28,967 nt of DNA from a virus. Both the position numbers and the translations under genes were made by a program. Below, piece by piece: positions 7,309 through 17,251 of this stretch (position 1 is the stretch's first letter; each line of letters opens with the position of its first letter). The stretch lies in IMG/VR virus record IMGVR_UViG_3300025009_000320, positions 1 to 28,967 of that record. One strand, 5' to 3'. Under the pieces are notes generated by a model. That model saw only the letters and a list, made by a program, of their open reading frames with translations, was not told where the DNA came from and did no database searches.

Positions 7309-7737
7309 CTAATTTAGCCAACTCCGCCGGAATACAACAATAGCAGATGGAAACGGTGCGGGGTTATTCCCGTCTCCAAACTTCAACCGTCCACGAATAA
7401 AGCGGATCTGCCCTTTCATAACGTAGTCATGCCAGTATGCAGTGTCAGTTCGCGAGGGTATCAAACAAACCACTGTCGCCCCTTTTTGCGATTCGTCATA
7501 AGCCTTTTTAATCCACTTACCTATTTCGCGTCCGTAGGGTGGATTTACGAATACCGTACCTTGCCAGTCTTTTGTTAATCCGTCATCATCCCGCGTGAAA
7601 TGACGCGCACATTTTGCGTTCTCGTGAGTTGAACACGGATCTAATGTGAATTTAAATTCCAGATTCAACTCGTCAAACAACTTTTGCGGAGTAGTCCATT
7701 CGTTTGACAAACTACTCATCATTCCAGGGGTTATCAC
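7309..7737 (-). CDS. dam: phage DNA N6-adenine methyltransferase, first copy
   Basis: 142 residues of the phage Dam-like family. Residues 14-35 have EWTTPQKLFDELNLEF, then the LDPCST segment typical of this family. The VNPPYG motif, the NPPY catalytic tetrad, follows, and then a C-terminal strand with IRFIRGRLKFGDGNNPAPFP, where such enzymes carry a conserved FxxP-type ending. It methylates the exocyclic N6 of adenine in phage DNA. The first start is a GTG overlapping the upstream TGA; ATGs at codons 6 and 7 are possible alternatives. A second paralogue lies at 11767-12216. Confidence 0.88.
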   Translation of the reverse strand: MITPGMMSSLSNEWTTPQKLFDELNLEFKFTLDPCSTHENAKCARHFTRDDDGLTKDWQGTVFVNPPYGREIGKWIKKAYDESQKGATVVCLIPSRTDTAYWHDYVMKGQIRFIRGRLKFGDGNNPAPFPSAIVVFRRSWLN

Positions 7738-8728: not shown

Positions 8729-10000
8729 TTATCTAAATTGGCTGGTTGACTTCTCCAGTTCACCAAACGCCGGGAATCCTGGTTTTTTGACAAGCGTTAT
8801 CATCCTGGCATCCCCGTCACCTTCTCGCAACTTGTCGAATAAAAGGGTAATCAGGTTAGGATTCTTGTTGTCCTTCATCATCACGGCTATTGTGTCAACG
8901 TCATAACTAATTTGCCCGGATCCTGATAATGTGGCCATGCCAGACCCGCCGCCTATTCCCTGCTTATTCATGGAATGTATTGTCAAACAGGCTAGGTTCA
9001 GGTCTTTGGCTATGTCGTGTAATGACGACCCGATATAGGCTAATCTTTCGTGATCGTCCTTTCCATAGCGGTCCTTCAGGAGCCTTAAATAATCGACAAT
9101 GAAAAATTCTATACCGTTTAGCGTTTTTCTCTTTACCAAATCAGCTCTCATTGAGGCGGTTGTCCATTGAGTAGAATCCGAAAAGTAAACGGGTAGATGT
9201 TCAAGCCTTCCTATCGCAGCGTTTATTTTTGTTTGCTCATGATCCTCTAGCCTGCCTGATTTCATGCTTGACACTTGCACACTACTTTCAACCGATAATG
9301 TCCGGCGCAGCGTCTGGTGACTTGACATTTCCATTTCGTAAATAACGCCCGGATGGTCAAATTTTGCCATTGAGAAGCCAATCTGCATAGCCAGTAAAGA
9401 CTTTCCTAATCCCGGCTCGCCTGATAGTAAAAACACCTCACCTTTTTGCAATCCCCCAGCAATCTTGTCAAGCCCTGGTATACCAGTTGCCAATCCGTAA
9501 ATATCCTTCGGGTCGGCAATCCTTACCTGTATATCATCATATAAAGTTGATAATATCTCTGAAACGGGTTTGCTCTCTTTGTCCGGTGAAGCGTTAGTTA
9601 CCATTCTCGTAACAAATCCCGGTATACTATCCTGTAAATCTTTACTTTCGTCAAATGCGCTTGTGGCAAGGTCACCTGACAGTTTTATGTAATCCCTCCG
9701 TCTTGCTTTGTCTTTGACAATGGATACATAAGAATCCCAATTCATACTAGACGGGGTAATATAGGTTGTGTTGGTTAAGAATGACGCGTCAACCTTCCCG
9801 ACTAATTTCTGCATTACCGTGAGATAGTCTATGTCATGGTGCTCAATGGATAACTCTTGAAACGCTATCCAGGTTGCTTTTGTATCCCCAAAATAGAAGT
9901 CATCGGCGGACAAATCAATCTCGCGAAAACATGACGGGTTGACTAAAACGGATCCGATTACCGCCATTTCGGCTTCTTTACTGCAAGGAAGTTGATTCAT
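8729..10000 (-). CDS. dnaB: DnaB-like replicative helicase
   Basis: 423 residues. The N-terminal domain (about 1-110) begins CSKEAEMAVIGSVLVNP, the DnaB N-domain signature that contacts primase. A linker leads to the RecA-like motor at about 170: GIPGLDKIAGGLQKGEVFLL, Walker A SGEPGLGKS (193-201), a Glu-rich H1a-like EMEMS, Walker B FFIVDYLRLL near 300, and the SGSGQISYDVDTI region with the arginine-finger-proximal H4. It unwinds phage DNA at the fork as a hexamer. It lies downstream of the replication initiator and a C5 methyltransferase, and its start overlaps the methyltransferase end by 23 bases. Confidence 0.93.
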   Translation of the reverse strand: MNQLPCSKEAEMAVIGSVLVNPSCFREIDLSADDFYFGDTKATWIAFQELSIEHHDIDYLTVMQKLVGKVDASFLTNTTYITPSSMNWDSYVSIVKDKARRRDYIKLSGDLATSAFDESKDLQDSIPGFVTRMVTNASPDKESKPVSEILSTLYDDIQVRIADPKDIYGLATGIPGLDKIAGGLQKGEVFLLSGEPGLGKSLLAMQIGFSMAKFDHPGVIYEMEMSSHQTLRRTLSVESSVQVSSMKSGRLEDHEQTKINAAIGRLEHLPVYFSDSTQWTTASMRADLVKRKTLNGIEFFIVDYLRLLKDRYGKDDHERLAYIGSSLHDIAKDLNLACLTIHSMNKQGIGGGSGMATLSGSGQISYDVDTIAVMMKDNKNPNLITLLFDKLREGDGDARMITLVKKPGFPAFGELEKSTSQFR

Positions 10001-10703
10001 TTATAATCCTTTTCCCGATCCACTCTGCTATTTGTGGCACTACTGCATTGCCCATTTGTTTTACTCTACGTTTGTCCAATTCAATGGGTATCCCATTATC
10101 CATTCGTATAATTGGGGGTTGGGTATTCCCCCATATTTGTTTTGAACAATCCAACCTATGCCGTGATAATGATCTCCAGGACTCTTTGAAGTCATATACT
10201 TCTCTTCCCAAACCGTTGGGGTAGGCCACAATGTAGATTCTTTCCCTTCTGTGCGGTGCGCCAAATTTTTGCGCCGGTAGCACTTGCCATTCTGCATCAA
10301 ACCCGATTGTGGCCAAATCTCCAAGTATGTTTCCAAAGAATTTTCCATTGTCGCTTGAGAGTAACCCAAATACATTTTCTGCCACAACCCACTTTGGGTT
10401 AATTTCGCAAATGATTCTGAAAAATTCCGACCAAAGCGTCGATCTCTTTCCGTTAAGCCCAAGTCTATCCCCTGCAAGACTGACATCCTGGCATGGGAAT
10501 CCCCCACAAATAACGTCAACTGGTTCAAGGTTGTGTTTTCCAACTTCTCTGACATCTTTATACCTCTTTACTAATGGCCAATGTTTTTCTAATACCTTAT
10601 TGCAGGCATCATCAATTTCGACTTGCCAGGAGCATTCCATTCCTGCCCTCTCAAAGCCCAAGTCGAACCCGCCAATCCCCGAAAATAAGCTGCCAAATTT
10701 CAT
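9978..10703 (-). CDS. DNA (cytosine-5) methyltransferase, second copy
   Basis: 241 residues, short for the family but with every core motif. Motif I is SLFSGIGGFDLGFERAG (5-21), motif IV GGFPCQDVS with catalytic Cys71, motif VI AENV (109-111), motif VIII APHRRERIYIV and motif X QMGNAVVP near the C-terminus. The target-recognition region between VIII and X is only about 50 residues, so the enzyme is compact. It differs clearly from the first copy (SPPCQGFS), so the two probably recognise different sites. The gene follows the replication initiator by seven bases and contains a second reading frame at 10061-10555. Confidence 0.93.
   Translation of the reverse strand: MKFGSLFSGIGGFDLGFERAGMECSWQVEIDDACNKVLEKHWPLVKRYKDVREVGKHNLEPVDVICGGFPCQDVSLAGDRLGLNGKRSTLWSEFFRIICEINPKWVVAENVFGLLSSDNGKFFGNILGDLATIGFDAEWQVLPAQKFGAPHRRERIYIVAYPNGLGREVYDFKESWRSLSRHRLDCSKQIWGNTQPPIIRMDNGIPIELDKRRVKQMGNAVVPQIAEWIGKRIINESTSLQ
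10061..10555 (-). CDS. ORF nested in the C5 methyltransferase gene (+1 frame)
   Basis: 164 codons lie wholly inside the methyltransferase gene on the same strand, offset by +1. The ATG follows GAGG with a seven-base gap, a better ribosome binding site than chance would usually give. The product contains SHARMSVLQG, a SFAKL...SGLWQK stretch, LEIWPQSGLMQNGKCYRR, LWPTPT, and, at the end, YEWIMGYPLNWT. From memory, proteins with this order of motifs (a W/PRSGMM-like block, WPTPT, and EWLMGYPxGWT) occur widely beside phage C5 methyltransferases, often annotated as methylase-related. That makes translation plausible. The biochemical role is unknown. It could also be an accident of the conserved methyltransferase sequence. 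Confidence 0.6.
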   Translation of the reverse strand: MSEKLENTTLNQLTLFVGDSHARMSVLQGIDLGLTERDRRFGRNFSESFAKLTQSGLWQKMYLGYSQATMENSLETYLEIWPQSGLMQNGKCYRRKNLAHRTEGKESTLWPTPTVWEEKYMTSKSPGDHYHGIGWIVQNKYGGIPNPQLYEWIMGYPLNWTNVE

Positions 10704-11621: not shown

Positions 11622-11780
11622 TTACGCCTGCTCGCACGCTTCGATGTATTGCAGACATGAATCGCATATTCCGTCATTCAGATCGTCCGCGTGAAACTTG
11701 TCGTGGCATTTGTCGCACGTGGTATATTTTGGAATACCAGGCGGGTTCAATCTGCTATCCATGAAGTCAACTGATTCCAT
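11622..11780 (-). CDS. small zinc-finger protein
   Basis: The frame is open to 11864, but the ATG at 11780 follows AGAGG and overlaps the methyltransferase end by 14 bases, so I choose it: 52 residues. Residues 21-44 hold CDKCHDKFHADD and CDSC, a four-ligand zinc site (CxxC ... CxxC with nearby His). It is the last gene before the intergenic regulatory region of the replication genes. The function is unknown. Confidence 0.62.
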   Translation of the reverse strand: MESVDFMDSRLNPPGIPKYTTCDKCHDKFHADDLNDGICDSCLQYIEACEQA

Positions 11781-12216
11781 CGTTAATCCTCTTTTCTGGA
11801 TCCAAAACGAACGCGGCAACCCATCTGCCAGTACCTTTACCTTGTTGTCGATCCTCAATTGCAAGCCAGCGAATATCTTTTAGGTTGCGAATTTCAGCGC
11901 CTTGTTCAATCAGCATGTGGATCCATTTGTCAATTGGGTAAAGCAACACAACTTTTTTACCTTTTTGGAATTCCTTAATTGATTTTCTAGCCCATGCTGT
12001 AGGACCATATTTTTTACCATCAACTTCAATTGCTCCGAATGGTGGGTTGACATAATTTGAGGATCCCCACTCCGCCACTAATCCGTCAAAGTCATCAGGT
12101 TTTGGGAATGGGCAAGGGTCAAATGTAAACGCGAATTCTTGATCTAACTCCTCATAAACATCATCAGGAATAAGCCAGTAGTGTTTGCCGTCTTTAGCGC
12201 CTTCTGTAAATGTCAC
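11767..12216 (-). CDS. phage DNA N6-adenine methyltransferase-like, second copy
   Basis: 149 residues, a distant paralogue of 7309-7737. It starts YWLIPDDVYEELDQEFAFTF, then DPCPFP where the other copy has LDPCST, then YVNPPFG, the catalytic NPPF. A strand VVLLYPIDKW follows, then the C-terminal GRWVAAFVLDP. The order of motifs is that of the phage Dam-like N6A methyltransferase family. NPPF instead of NPPY is common in active N6 enzymes. It overlaps both neighbours by a few bases. With its paralogue it probably marks phage DNA against host restriction. Confidence 0.8.
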   Translation of the reverse strand: MTFTEGAKDGKHYWLIPDDVYEELDQEFAFTFDPCPFPKPDDFDGLVAEWGSSNYVNPPFGAIEVDGKKYGPTAWARKSIKEFQKGKKVVLLYPIDKWIHMLIEQGAEIRNLKDIRWLAIEDRQQGKGTGRWVAAFVLDPEKRINDGIS

Positions 12217-13548: not shown

Positions 13549-13817
13549 TCACCGTCCTCTACATTTATGCCGTTCAACTTGACATACATCATGTGGGCTT
13601 TGAGGTCAGCCTGCTTGCACAGCTCCTCAAATTCTTCCATGGCGTTATACATTCCGCGTTCCACCCACATGTCAACCGACTGGCAGTAGATTTTCCACAG
13701 TCTGTCAGCTCTAGCCCTCGCGTGGATGTATACAACCTCCATAAGGGAGCGTTTCTTCGGCTTCAGGTCAGCCCAGGTGTACGTGCGGTCGCGGTCAGAA
13801 CAGCCTACGCAGGTCAT
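13545..13817 (-). CDS. small basic-acidic helical protein, unknown
   Basis: 90 residues, with an N-terminal CVGC pair (TCVGCSDRDRTYTW), then a mostly helical body: MEVVYIHARARADRLW and MWVERGMYNAMEEFEELCK. No catalytic motif is visible. ATGA overlaps join it to both neighbours. It may be a small structural partner of the repeat protein encoded directly upstream, an inference from the coupling only. Confidence 0.55.
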   Translation of the reverse strand: MTCVGCSDRDRTYTWADLKPKKRSLMEVVYIHARARADRLWKIYCQSVDMWVERGMYNAMEEFEELCKQADLKAHMMYVKLNGINVEDGE

Positions 13818-14344
13818 AATTCCCTCACATATCCGTCAATGGTAGATATTTTGGTTATAAATTCAGCCCGCGCGGCATCGCACACCTTCTGGTATTCAGC
13901 CCACGCGGCATCGCACACCTTCTCGTATTCAGCCCGCGCGGGAGCGCACACCTTCTGGTATTCAGCCCACGCGGCATCGCACACCTTCTGGTATTCAGCC
14001 CACGCGGCATCGCACACCTTCTCGTATTCAGCCCGCGCGGGAGCGCACACCTTCTCGTATTCAGCCCGCGCGGGAGCGACACGTTTCAACAATTTATCGC
14101 ACCTTGTTTTTACCGCATCCTCGTCTGCCCATCCCGGAAGCGTTGACTCTTCGTCAAAGCGAAAACTACCAATCTTCCATGTAGGAATTTCAACCCTTAC
14201 GAAGTTGCGGACAAAATGATCTGTATTGTCCTTGATTCCCGCGCGTCTTAGTATCTCTGAATGAGAAACATTGCCATCTGCATCAGGCTCGCAAAACAAG
14301 TATCTTCCGTCTTTCGTTACGATAACGCCAAATCCTTCACACAT
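13814..14344 (-). CDS. protein with seven 11-residue (hendecad) tandem repeats
   Basis: 176 residues. The first 90 form a compact domain (GFGVIVTKDGRYLFCEPD, then VRNFVRVEIPTWKIG) unlike anything I can name. From about residue 90, seven copies of an 11-residue unit such as APARAEYEKVC or DAAWAEYQKVC follow, ending in a degenerate copy and a short tail. Eleven-residue periodicity fits a right-handed hendecad coiled coil. Six units end in Cys, so a line of Cys residues would lie along one face. The ATG follows GAGGAG inside the upstream 25-residue gene, and the two overlap by one base (TAATG). Confidence 0.7.
   Translation of the reverse strand: MCEGFGVIVTKDGRYLFCEPDADGNVSHSEILRRAGIKDNTDHFVRNFVRVEIPTWKIGSFRFDEESTLPGWADEDAVKTRCDKLLKRVAPARAEYEKVCAPARAEYEKVCDAAWAEYQKVCDAAWAEYQKVCAPARAEYEKVCDAAWAEYQKVCDAARAEFITKISTIDGYVREL
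13861..14091 (-). repeat. seven tandem 33-bp repeats inside a coding region
   Basis: Units start at 13861, 13894, 13927, 13960, 13993, 14026 and 14059, each 33 bp. The first six are nearly identical, with only a few alternative positions (gcggcat or gcgggag; ctggt or ctcgt), and the seventh decays after about 20 bases. The mosaic of variants suggests unequal recombination between copies. The length being divisible by three keeps the frame open and also leaves other frames open by chance. Confidence 0.92.
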
Positions 14345-14421
14345 TATTTTCTCCTCTCAATTATCGCGGATATAACACATGCCAGTAGTATCAGAACGTA
14401 GCCTAATACGATTGCGCCCAT
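14344..14421 (-). CDS. 25-residue single-span membrane peptide
   Basis: It has a perfectly tiled position: its ATG overlaps the upstream TGA (TGATG) and its TAA overlaps the next ATG (TAATG). GGGAG precedes the start. The peptide is one hydrophobic helix of about 19 residues (AIVLGYVLILLACVISAII) with a basic end (ERRK). Small single-span phage peptides can be holins, superinfection-exclusion factors or regulators of host membrane enzymes; which applies is unknown. The second gene of the early operon is a typical place for a host-takeover peptide. Confidence 0.65.
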   Translation of the reverse strand: MGAIVLGYVLILLACVISAIIERRK

Positions 14422-14675
14422 CACTCCCGTCCGTTGTCGTGTCCGACTATTTCAATGTCACCGTCATTGTGGATAAGTTTGGCGTGCATTGTATCCAGTC
14501 GGTCATACATCTCTAATCCGCTGGAGGGTATCTTGCCGATGATTTTCACCTTCAGCGTTTCAACTCCCTGCCGTAAGACTTCTGACATGCTTACGTGTAG
14601 GATAGAGGACAGTTCCTCCATGTCAGACCTTGTTTCATTGTCGTGCGCGAATAAGAATCTATTTTCTTTCGTCAT
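14421..14675 (-). CDS. ribbon-helix-helix-like protein, first gene of the early operon
   Basis: The frame is open to 14792, but the promoter and the ribosome binding site (GAGAGGAG) are inside it, so the ATG at 14675 is the start: 84 residues. The N-terminal RFLFAHDNETRSDMEELSSI, followed by LHVSMSEVLRQGVETLKVK, has the spacing of a ribbon-helix-helix fold: a strand, then helices with a Ser-x-Ser-Glu-Val-Leu-Arg turn. These proteins bind DNA as dimers and often repress their own promoter. A dyad flanking the -10 box of this gene is a natural candidate site. The C-terminal part is unknown. Confidence 0.65.
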   Translation of the reverse strand: MTKENRFLFAHDNETRSDMEELSSILHVSMSEVLRQGVETLKVKIIGKIPSSGLEMYDRLDTMHAKLIHNDGDIEIVGHDNGRE

Positions 14676-14694
14676 ATTACTCCTCTCTTTGTAT

Positions 14695-14728
14695 ACTATC
14701 ATTATAGCGATAGTTATATAAAAGTCAA
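14695..14728 (-). promoter_or_regulatory. early promoter with operator-like dyad
   Basis: TTGACT (14723-14728, five of six to consensus), 16-base spacer and perfect TATAAT (14701-14706), ending about 25 bases before the RHH gene start. The -10 box is framed by ACTATC (14709-14714) and GATAGT (14695-14700), a six-base inverted repeat with an eight-base centre. A dimeric repressor bound there would block the promoter. This would be the main early promoter reading left through the replication genes. Confidence 0.78.
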
Positions 14729-14908
14729 TACCCCAATTCCCACCAGTTTCCACTATCCCCCGCCGTGTTCTCGGAATGCTATGCGCTATCATAGAGGATT
14801 GAAAATTTGCCCTGTAGAATCAACGGAATAGCATAATGTGGTGTTATATACCTAAAATATCGGTCATATAACCTATAATGTAGGTGGTAGCTCCCGCGTG
14901 CATAGACG

Positions 14909-14971
14909 ATTGTAAAGTATTTGTGAATTATTGTTAAGTTTTACTGATTTATTGTAAAGTTTGTTTCATTA
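14909..14971. repeat. three 21-bp iterons
   Basis: The sequence attgtaaagt occurs at 14909 and 14951, with attgttaagt at 14930. The starts are exactly 21 bases apart, two helical turns, so bound proteins would sit on the same face. The bases following each core also agree partly. A perfect palindrome follows without a gap. This arrangement is typical of initiator binding sites at phage and plasmid origins. Confidence 0.72.
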
Positions 14972-14991
14972 TGTTATCAATAATGATAACA
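14972..14991. promoter_or_regulatory. perfect palindrome next to the iterons
   Basis: TGTTATC (14972-14978), six bases, GATAACA (14985-14991): seven-base arms of a 20-bp dyad. Length and symmetry fit an operator for a dimeric HTH regulator. It begins at the position where a fourth iteron would start. Confidence 0.65.
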
Positions 14992-15193
14992 AAGTACAAT
15001 GGATTATCAATTATCGTATTGAAATGATACTAAGGTATAAAATATTGATCGTTATTGTCATGTCTTGAAAACTCAATTTTTAATACACGATACCAACATC
15101 ATGTAAGATTTTTGCCATTTTTAATACATGACGAACTGATCGGGATTACCGAATAGTTGAGCAACTGACAAAGGATATTTGACGGTTGAAATG

Positions 15194-15216
15194 TCGGAAT
15201 CTCATTCCGAGTTTTT
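15194..15216 (+). terminator. plus-strand terminator-like hairpin
   Basis: TCGGAAT/ATTCCGA (15194-15200 and 15204-15210) with a CTC loop is followed by GTTTTT. This is a good intrinsic terminator form in the plus direction, but no plus-strand gene precedes it. It may stop antisense transcription, or be a protein-binding dyad. Confidence 0.4.
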
Positions 15217-15302
15217 AATAGTTATTAAAATAATCCAAATTATTATAATCAGGATTATTATAATTCTCGTAAACCGTCTTATTTGCGAGAATTAGACGAT
15301 TC

Positions 15303-16073
15303 GGGAACGCGTCATTTTAAGCGACAAACTGACGGGTTCCCACATTTATCATACATAGATCCGCGTCAACCCTCACATTTATCAAAGGAAACTTTTGCTG
15401 AAAGTGTACGTCAGTGACGGAAAATGTGTGACATTTGCGGTACAAATATGCAGTTGGATTGCACAAGCTCCGCGAATTGACAAGTTTGTGCGCTGGAAAC
15501 AAACTCCCCTCAACAAGACGCTATGCGACTCATCAGGGGAGGTTGCGGTAGCCAGTGGCCACCCATGCAGCATTAAGGCAACTGCCCGCCGGAAGCATGT
15601 GGTCAGGTCGCTAAACTTGGCAATGGAATTGCGGTCAATGACCTCCCCTACCATACGTCTTAGTGACGCGTTCCCCTCACTGCACATACTAATTGCTCCG
15701 GTGGGGAATTGCACCCTCTGATTTACCTTATCAAGATCTACGCCTATTACGCTCGGAGCATCTCGTTCTAACACGGATGACATTTGAGCACTAAGGCTTC
15801 ATCCGTTTACTAATTCATGCGTCAGGATTTGAACCTGAAACCGTTATAGACTGGTCGTTTGGTTTACTTCTTGCGTTTACCCATCATTGAGAGGATCTTG
15901 ACCAATTTCCCTACAATCAATCCTGAAAACGTACCTCCGCCAGCCACGATACAAAGTCTTTACGAGTACCGTTTTTCAGGGTGTAGATGGTGGGTTCGCT
16001 CCCTCCTCTAGGGTATTCACCGCGTGTCTCACCACGCCGCGCATGAAATGTTAAAGAGCATACTTAGCATTCA
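15303..16073 (-). ncRNA. candidate large structured non-coding RNA
   Basis: About 770 bases with no believable protein, transcribed from a near-consensus promoter at 16079-16107. The minus-strand RNA can form many perfect stems. Examples are 16022-16026/16033-16037; 15911-15934/15966-15986 (17 pairs in three blocks); a UUCAAAU loop on a five-base stem at 15832-15848; 15774-15780/15799-15805; a six-base stem around 15535/15506; a seven-base stem near 15482-15504; and 15303-15314/15330-15341. A seven-base helix closes 15825-15831 with 16040-16046. Size, phage setting and density of stems recall the large ornate RNA classes GOLLD and ROOL, which occur in phages. I cannot confirm membership. The 3' end is a guess at the last strong stem. 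Confidence 0.6.
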
Positions 16074-16078
16074 CTAAT

Positions 16079-16107
16079 ATTATTGCACGACATTTTTCAT
16101 TTGTCAA
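16079..16107 (-). promoter_or_regulatory. strong promoter of the structured RNA
   Basis: TTGACA, a perfect -35, at 16102-16107, a 17-base spacer and AATAAT (-10, five of six) at 16079-16084. No start codon with a ribosome binding site follows within several hundred bases. The promoter therefore points to an RNA product or a long leader. Confidence 0.8.
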
Positions 16108-16115
16108 GTAGCTGC

Positions 16116-16187
16116 GGAGCGCCGCCCGTTAGGGATACAGCGCTCCATTTTGCCGGGCTTTGCCGGAGCGTGCAACTGGGAGCTACC
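16116..16187 (-). repeat. GC-rich hairpin cluster after the metallophosphoesterase
   Basis: The 97 bases between the metallophosphoesterase stop and the RNA promoter hold GGAGCGC/GCGCTCC (16116-16122 with 16140-16146) with an inner CCC/GGG, a CCGG/CCGG stem near 16152-16165 and a gggagctaccc element near 16178. No U-run follows. It could end late transcription by another mechanism or be an RNA element in itself. Confidence 0.45.
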
Positions 16188-16204
16188 CAGGTGGTGCATG
16201 TTTA

Positions 16205-17251
16205 TTATACCGCTGGAACTCCCATTCTCTTATACAATCCCCAGGGAGTAGACGGGTCAAGGTCAAATGGATGCCCGCCCCTTACGATTGTCGCGCCTGT
16301 GCTGTGCTGTTCAGCCCCCCGGGTGCGTTGCCCGACATAGGCCATTCTTTCTTCGTCACAGCACATTCCCATTTGGATAGCCCAGAATTGATTGGATGGA
16401 TCACGCGCCCTCAAATATCTGTGTGAATGCCCCATGAGGACGTGACATAGTTTTTTACTCGCGATCTGGATTGCTGCGGACTTACTCGCACTCACGGGAT
16501 GCTCGATACTATAATCACCCTTTTCAGTGTGCAAGGTTGAAAAATAATACGGCGCTATCCTGTATTTCGGATTATCGCCAACTGTAAACTGCTTCAGTTG
16601 ATCTGCAAACATGGGGGAATTCAGCGCGGACAGTAACCGCCCATCATGGTTGCCTATGACATAGACAATATCATCAAAGGCAGTAGACAGGTTGGTGAGC
16701 GCGTCCTTTGCTACCCTAACTTCACCCCCCACATCATCATCATGGTTAGGCTCAAATTGTTCAATGGTATTCAGGTATTCTTGTTGTAGTTTTGCGGGGA
16801 GTTTAGGTAGTAAGTCCATCAGCGCGGCGTGTGCTTTGTCGGATATGTCCCCTTGATTCTCCGACTTCCAATTAGCCTCCCAATGACTTATGGAATTGAA
16901 ATGCAGCGCGTCCCCTGCGATATTACACTGCGTTATGCCCCACGACATTGCCAACTCAATACACCTGTTTACGAAGTCCGCGTTATGGAACGGGACTTCC
17001 AAATCAGGTATCACCAGGCAGTCGCCTGATTGTTCTAACGGTTTGTCGTATTTCGGGTAGGGGGATTCAAGAATAGGGGTAAAAGCGTATGAAGTACCTT
17101 TGTTGCCTGTTATGTCTCTGTAATGTGTCCTTGCTGCTTCACCGCCAACGCCAAACTCTTTTCCAATTTCATCATATATCAGGGTGGTATTTTCAACTAG
17201 ATTTATTAACTTCGCGTTATCCTCATCGCTCCATATCTTTTTTCGTCTCAA
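16205..17251 (-). CDS. metallophosphoesterase with N-terminal Myb/HTH-like segment
   Basis: 348 residues. The start is a TTG after GAGGAG. Residues 6-45 (WSDEDNAKLINLVENTTLIY ... EIGKEFGVGGEAARTHY) look like a SANT/Myb or HTH DNA-binding unit. The calcineurin-like domain follows, with IPDLEVPFHN (D83, H89), IAGDAL (D114), VIGNHDGR (N201, H202) and LMGHSHR (H275, H277), a complete two-metal site. Such phage enzymes hydrolyse phosphoesters of nucleic acid, nucleotides or protein; the DNA-binding-like N-terminus favours a nucleic-acid substrate. It stands alone between the lysis genes and the structured RNA, with its own promoter-like sequence and a hairpin leader. Confidence 0.85.
   Translation of the reverse strand: MRRKKIWSDEDNAKLINLVENTTLIYDEIGKEFGVGGEAARTHYRDITGNKGTSYAFTPILESPYPKYDKPLEQSGDCLVIPDLEVPFHNADFVNRCIELAMSWGITQCNIAGDALHFNSISHWEANWKSENQGDISDKAHAALMDLLPKLPAKLQQEYLNTIEQFEPNHDDDVGGEVRVAKDALTNLSTAFDDIVYVIGNHDGRLLSALNSPMFADQLKQFTVGDNPKYRIAPYYFSTLHTEKGDYSIEHPVSASKSAAIQIASKKLCHVLMGHSHRYLRARDPSNQFWAIQMGMCCDEERMAYVGQRTRGAEQHSTGATIVRGGHPFDLDPSTPWGLYKRMGVPAV

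Follow-up and report, generated by a model that had tools for sequence, protein, structure and literature searches.

A modular array of small RNAs with an abiF-RNA-like hairpin in a viral genome, and abiF RNAs lacking a toxin gene in phages

The window, i.e., the whole stretch of DNA analyzed here, comprises 28,967 nt and corresponds to a virus record of IMG/VR. Between a metallophosphoesterase gene and a small gene at positions 14421-14792 it contains a gap of ~1.4 kb (14793-16204), in which no plausible gene was seen; a Pfam search of the open reading frames inside the gap gave no match. The gap is entered from the right by the near-consensus promoter given in the preliminary description, which we confirmed on the minus strand (Table 1) and which has an equally good counterpart, TTGACA-17-TATACT, at the matching place of the relative L002. 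When the segment 15500-15290 was aligned with two relatives, indels of 1, 1, 2, 2, and 1 nt were found in comparison to L014 and of 1, 1, 1, 1, and 6 nt in comparison to L002. Because of these indel sizes, no reading frame is conserved across the relatives, which agrees with the earlier statement that the region encodes no protein.

The minus-strand RNA folded better than shuffled sequences (z = -3.0, none of 20 shuffles being as good). The plus strand, however, folded at least equally well (z = -3.85), and folding energy alone thus leaves the strand unfixed. A terminator-like hairpin, CUCCCC..GGGGAG, with a G+C-rich stem followed by UUUGUUU (TTTGTTT in the DNA), is located downstream of the promoter and went unreported in our terminator scan, which admits loops of at most 8 nt, since its loop is longer. 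Hairpins with T-rich tails occupy the equivalent terminator role in L002, L014, L009, and L003. As a consequence of this hairpin, the predicted transcript is ~575 nt long rather than the ~770 nt assumed initially, while its description as a non-coding, structured, and promoter-driven phage RNA of the minus strand was retained.

Table 1. Positions of the array modules, control elements, and neighboring features in the window
Feature	Coordinates	Strand	Basis or remarks
Metallophosphoesterase gene	16205-17251	-	Neighbor outside the RNA array; phrog_221, 6.6e-20
Sigma-70-type promoter, TTGACA-17-AATAAT	16079-16107	-	TG before the -10 element; 11 of 12 consensus matches
Predicted transcript, array of RNA modules (~575 nt)	15497-16072	-	Inferred from promoter and terminator-like hairpin
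W1, tRNA-like element	15814-16047	-	Sequence and fold
W2, abiF-RNA-like hairpin with internal bulge	15773-15806	-	Covariance model, homology, fold z -3.2
W3, cloverleaf-like element, UGCUCCG..CGGAGCA, with D-arm-like and T-arm-like hairpins	15694-15760	-	Folds, homologues
W4, structured stretch	15546-15690	-	Fold only, z -1.9 including the terminator
Terminator-like hairpin	15497-15541	-	Fold z -3.4
Conserved non-coding block beyond the terminator	15300-15500		78-87% identity to L014 and L002

The conserved block beyond the terminator contains two GATAAATGTGRGG repeats and a hairpin GGGAACNCGTCA..TGACGNGTTCCC. The remaining part of the gap (14793-15290) is strongly AT-rich, carries several promoter-like sites and inverted repeats, and lies upstream of early genes; it is possibly an origin or an early control region. 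A small protein containing repeated units of the form PARAEYEKVCDAAWAEYQKVC is encoded nearby (13814-14344, minus strand).

The preliminary description had suggested one large RNA of the GOLLD or ROOL kind. Length, structure, phage origin, and closeness to tRNA-like sequence do resemble these RNAs (PMC12286853), which, like the array described here, are phage non-coding RNAs near tRNA islands. In a cmscan of the window against Rfam, including GOLLD, ROOL, tmRNA, and the group I and II introns, no family was matched at curated thresholds, and only chance-level matches appeared at E values up to 5; GOLLD and ROOL matched the window neither in sequence nor in structure. Moreover, the ~770-nt region is not conserved as a unit in any relative; only modules are common to them, these recombine independently of each other, and the corresponding slots of the relatives hold separate small RNAs, among them autonomous known ones. 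A single large ornate RNA of a novel class, possibly multimeric like GOLLD or ROOL, is strongly disfavored by these results, and we consider it highly improbable. A tmRNA and a group I or II intron were likewise rejected as candidates for the window in the absence of a match to the Rfam models. ARAGORN found neither a tRNA nor a tmRNA at default settings and nothing at normal score when introns were allowed; its tmRNA calls, many and overlapping, appeared only at relaxed thresholds.

The transcript instead comprises a series of small modules, with spacers of 7 nt between W1 and W2 and of 12 nt between W2 and W3. W1 has an 8-bp acceptor-like stem (UUCAUGCG/CGCAUGAA), a D-arm-like hairpin (GCGUG..CACGC), a T-arm-like hairpin (UCAGG-UUCAAAU-CCUGA), and an insert of ~150 nt at the position of the anticodon arm. 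An element of L002 (5302-5410) has the same kind of ends (UCAUGUG..CACAUGA; T-arm UCGAG-UUCGACU-CUCGA) and a different, shorter middle part. In W3 the T-arm-like stem consists of 3 bp only, and the middle hairpin is short, varies between alternative folds and between relatives, and has no recognizable anticodon. The acceptor-like stems of both elements are perfect, and neither has an anticodon arm with a 7-nt loop. As the tRNA covariance model RF00005 matched neither W1 nor W3 nor anything else in the window, we call them tRNA-like elements and not tRNAs. For W4 no relative was found. The folding energies of W1, W3, and W4 were modestly below those of shuffled sequences.

W2 has the layout ACGGAUGA-AGC-CUUAGU-GCU-CAAAUG-UCAUCCGU and retains the elements AAGCCU..GCUCAAAU, a perfect outer stem, an inner AGC/GCU stem, and a CAAAU bulge. 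W2 shares its outer stem, its AAGCC..GCUCAAAU core, and its bulge with abiF RNA (RF03085), the RNA of the type III-like toxin-antitoxin system AbiF. The identity of W2 to the corresponding module of L014 is 82% over 68 nt, and that to L055, an otherwise unrelated phage contig, is 85% over 47 nt. W2 was also the top match in the window of R1, a covariance model that we built from 52 abiF RNAs (20.9 bits; E = 1.6e-4, a flattering value because the training set included the two W2 homologues of L014 and L055). RF03085 itself did not match W2; membership needs at least 37 bits, and by the threshold of Rfam W2 is not filed as an abiF RNA. The terminal loop of W2 is 5 nt shorter than in L014 and L055, where it reads CUCUNNACNAU, and the missing nucleotides include the region of a covarying loop pair. 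The homology thus gives good support to a descent of the W2 hairpin from abiF RNA; with the 5 loop nucleotides lost, W2 may be altered or decaying, and the shortened loop makes the activity of this hairpin uncertain. In the published structure the inhibitory nucleotides are placed in a single-stranded bulge (PMC12737573), for which the CAAAU bulge kept by W2 is a possible counterpart. The toxin gene is not adjacent to W2, and a search with PF07751 (Abi_2) found no such gene in the window record.

We then compared the window with related phage sequences. Relatives of the metallophosphoesterase were L002 (92%), L003 (66%), and L016 (63%; the same contig as L009), and L009, L014, and L017 were reached by sequence patterns. 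Among isolated phages no relative of the metallophosphoesterase was found, and a search of isolated phages and plasmids gave no DNA relative. In a first pattern search for W3, eight of 10 stretches were chance matches in unrelated DNA, the real ones being L009 and L008 (the same phage as L003); L017 was the sole find of a stricter second pattern. Folding of the W3 copies of the window, L009, and L017 gave much the same general shape.

The slot has a fixed position between late and early genes, and its content differs among these phages. L002 contains a tRNA-Glu, the W1-like element, a third tRNA-like element, and a 150-nt module; L014 contains a W2-like element, tRNA-Glu, tRNA-Met, the 150-nt module, and a DUF3800-VII RNA. 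In L017 a W3-like element, tRNA-Glu, and a weak DUF3800-VII-like RNA were found, in L009 two tRNA-like elements, and in L003 one W3-like element. The tRNA-Glu is identical in L002, L014, and L017 (RF00005, 38.2 bits). The abiF module of L014, which has the full loop, agrees with RF03085 at its conserved bases (27.7 bits, E = 3.6e-5 for the L014 record). L055 carries a lone 44-nt abiF module with 97.7% identity to that of L014, followed by its own terminator-like hairpin. Neither an Abi_2 nor a DUF3800 gene was present in the six records (the window and five relatives, which are partial records). It is well supported that the slot is a modular RNA array whose parts are exchanged between related phages.

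Two further features of the slots were noted. The 150-nt structured module (L002 5480-5629, L014 8410-8261) shows 93% identity between the two phages and includes a hairpin whose changes are all compensated (GUGUGUACACAC in L002, GGGCGCGCGCCC in L014). Between the two tRNA-like elements of L009 (1235-1290, plus strand) there is a hammerhead-ribozyme-like motif, CUGAUGA-GGAGUAAUCC-GAAA, with a stem III ACGC/GCGU and a UA cleavage site; it was the sole such match in 2.1 Mb of sequence and is not reported by Rfam.

The array might also be a decaying cluster, in which tRNA genes (tRNA-Glu-like and others) and an abiF RNA survive only as worn, inactive remnants. The partial loss of the W2 loop, the lack of relatives of W4, and the lack of a recognizable tRNA in the window, in contrast to the one or two retained by relatives, agree with decay. 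On the other hand, the promoter is near consensus, and no mismatch interrupts the outer stem of W2 or the acceptor-like stems of W1 and W3. Furthermore, L009, L017, and L003 contain W3-type elements that likewise lack a normal anticodon loop and have an identical acceptor-like stem; decay would not produce such a recurrence, which argues against it. We regard this explanation as doubtful, albeit as one to be taken seriously. The presence of two such elements in the window and of others in L002, L009, L017, and L003 could also mean that W1 and W3 are tRNA mimics without a decoding role, which would sequester tRNA-cleaving toxins or tRNA-processing enzymes of the host, W2 being only a passenger. 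Phage copies of tRNAs do defeat a tRNA-cleaving defense (PMC13096335), but the relatives bear ordinary tRNAs as well. We judge this possibility to be quite improbable, and we know of no decoy activity of tRNA-like elements of this family.

The exact core of abiF RNA was counted in 85 IMG/VR stretches, and 80 records were among the matches listed. In 77 of 79 core-bearing records (L014 excluded) Abi_2 was absent anywhere in the record; many of these records are fragments, so that an abiF gene could lie elsewhere in the case of the short ones. Among the core-bearing viral records of at least 40 kb, 31 of 33 had no Abi_2. Using a profile built from the AbiF of L054, an adjacent AbiF ORF was scored at only 2 of 71 evaluable viral loci, versus 47 of 69 bacterial ones (Fisher P = 1e-17). 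The bacterial loci L108-L187 also included abiF cores without an adjacent AbiF ORF by this profile (22 of the 69 evaluable). The stems of the abiF RNAs showed strong covariation (0.457 compared to 0.160 after shuffling), with 86 double-change cells compared to 27.7, and the loop pair was UA in 27, CG in 24, and AU in one sequence. Compensatory changes, which the preliminary description had named as decisive for its stems, are therefore present in homologues of the abiF-type module.

The viral copies were often located close to tRNAs. At 18 of 74 distinct viral loci a tRNA was found within 100 nt of the abiF core, on the same strand in all cases, whereas random placement within the same loci would give 4.9 (at most 11 in 2,000 draws). 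In four IMG/VR loci tRNAs flank the abiF RNA on both sides within ~150 nt, and in L035 it lies clearly inside a long tRNA array. The Rfam cut-off for abiF was exceeded by 16 of 20 tRNA-array loci, with phage scores of 39 to 59 bits. No other Rfam defense RNA was detected in the 20 array loci, in which only abiF, tRNAs, and one tmRNA were matched. A separate observation concerns L025 (7826-8219) and the matching places of L069 and L080, where an orphan abiF RNA directly precedes a permuted two-piece tmRNA gene; the tag of this tmRNA in the three viral contigs is A(A)NDDVYTEDFALAA.

Isolated phages carry the RNA as well, namely ~53 Mycobacterium phage records (Thibault and relatives), Aeromonas T7-like phages such as T7-Ah, Acinetobacter phage Acj61, CRP-143, CGphi29, and the Synechococcus phages S-SZBM1 and S-CREM1. 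Eight isolated phages, T7-like ones included, scored 32 to 60 bits with R1, and none of them has an Abi_2 gene. In some Mycobacterium phage records (L261, position 1501, among the abiF loci) the RNA lies beneath a small hypothetical ORF, which may be a mis-annotation. It is situated between connector and capsid assembly genes in the Aeromonas T7-like phages (L263 and L267, position 1501) and between scaffolding and capsid genes in Roseobacter phage CRP-143 (L266, position 1501). A region of Lactococcus phage sk1 is reported to protect from AbiF; a search of sk1 for abiF RNA gave no convincing match (13.5 bits, E = 0.09).

A hidden AbiF downstream of the orphan loci was considered and rejected, since the next ORFs are phage-like (capsid type, RtcB-like, radical SAM-like). 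The orphan RNAs could instead regulate phage genes in cis and not act on a host AbiF. The abiF RNA has such a second role in Clostridioides difficile, where it governs read-through into the gene that follows (PMC12373285), and several phage copies precede capsid-type genes, those of the Aeromonas T7-like phages lying just before a capsid assembly gene. Regulation in cis is hard to reconcile with downstream genes that are mutually unrelated (capsid type, RtcB-like, radical SAM-like, terminase, tRNA) and with the position of a quarter of the copies within 100 nt of tRNAs, and we consider it unlikely.

A second orphan RNA was found in L014, where a DUF3800-VII RNA (8263-8178, minus strand) scored 58.3 bits at a cut-off of 36.2 bits; the match in L017 was weaker. 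In a pattern scan for DUF3800-VII, 10 of 33 matches were real, of which four lie beside a DUF3800 gene and six have none in the record. As just 10 of the 33 matches were real, this part of the analysis is weaker than that on abiF RNA. The viral records with DUF3800-VII include G090, G100, G113, G115, and six more, and seven are without the gene when L014 is counted. For DUF3800 an RNase H fold and an association with non-coding RNAs have been predicted (PMC10910872). It is a possible defense system, and we treat the DUF3800-VII RNA as a lead. The window also encodes DNA methyltransferase-like proteins without an evident restriction partner (1693-2799, 7309-7737, 9978-10703, and 11767-12216; minus strand); they would fit a phage invested in counter-defense and prove nothing.

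AbiF has been proposed as an ancestor of Cas13. It has been established experimentally that abiF RNA is the antitoxin of the AbiF RNase and is effective in trans (PMC12373285; reviewed in PMC12737573). In contrast to these bacterial systems, the phage copies have no nearby abiF gene and usually occur singly in RNA or tRNA arrays. The full core is present in L014, L055, and dozens of other phages, whereas the copy of the window, with its shortened loop, falls below Rfam detection. One report mentions a cyanophage abiF RNA, that of S-CREM1 (PMC9964418; repeated in PMC12197685). This toxin-free copy lies between tRNA-Asn and tRNA-Gly, 29 and 4 nt away, in a cluster with manA and wcaG RNAs. This cluster differs from the window in its RNA companions, and its annotation includes no counter-defense reading. 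In the open-licence literature no paper was found that puts forward the orphan abiF RNAs as elements directed against AbiF. The counter-defense concept as such has close precedents in RNA anti-CRISPRs and phage tRNAs. In the case of RNA anti-CRISPRs (Racrs), a solitary phage copy of a defense RNA disables the defense protein (PMC10651486); by analogy the orphan abiF RNAs would differ in the target, which would be AbiF-type RNases instead of CRISPR-Cas. The tRNA-Tyr of phage T6, which acts against Septu (PMC13096335), resembles the window in that phage-encoded tRNAs or tRNA-like RNAs possibly give relief from an RNA-cleaving defense; the elements of the window differ from it by lacking a normal anticodon loop.

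We propose that the array is a phage RNA cassette, a one-promoter array of exchangeable modules, of which the antitoxin-like ones neutralize host RNases, and we give this reading about an even chance of being correct. The promoter in front of W1 would drive a short non-coding transcript ending near position 15497, and independent structured modules would be gained, lost, and swapped between phages in the fixed slot. W1 and W3 could be cut out by host tRNA-processing enzymes, which would release W2, and in other phages true tRNAs would likewise free the abiF RNAs located within tRNA arrays. Once released, the abiF-type RNA would bind an AbiF-family HEPN RNase of the host, an abortive-infection toxin that its own abiF RNA normally restrains, and hold it inactive during infection, as is suggested by the proven ability of abiF RNA to act in trans. 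The additional tRNA-Glu, tRNA-Met, and DUF3800-VII RNA in the slot of the relatives would be consistent with a cassette of general use against host defenses that target RNA or are controlled by RNA. The presence of abiF RNA without the toxin in many unrelated phages is expected if this RNA disarms a bacterial anti-phage system.

More tentatively, and with somewhat less confidence than an even chance would warrant, we suggest that phages of many families carry RNA counter-defense islands, i.e., transcripts with orphan antitoxin RNAs of the abiF, DUF3800-VII, and unassigned kinds that are set apart by tRNAs or tRNA-like elements. Each antitoxin RNA would neutralize a different RNA-controlled host RNase, and the modules would be traded between phages. 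If true, this would provide a function for some of the non-coding sequence in the tRNA arrays of phages. If phages widely carry abiF RNA without the toxin, AbiF is possibly defeated by its own antitoxin, which would be a counterpart of the RNA anti-CRISPRs.
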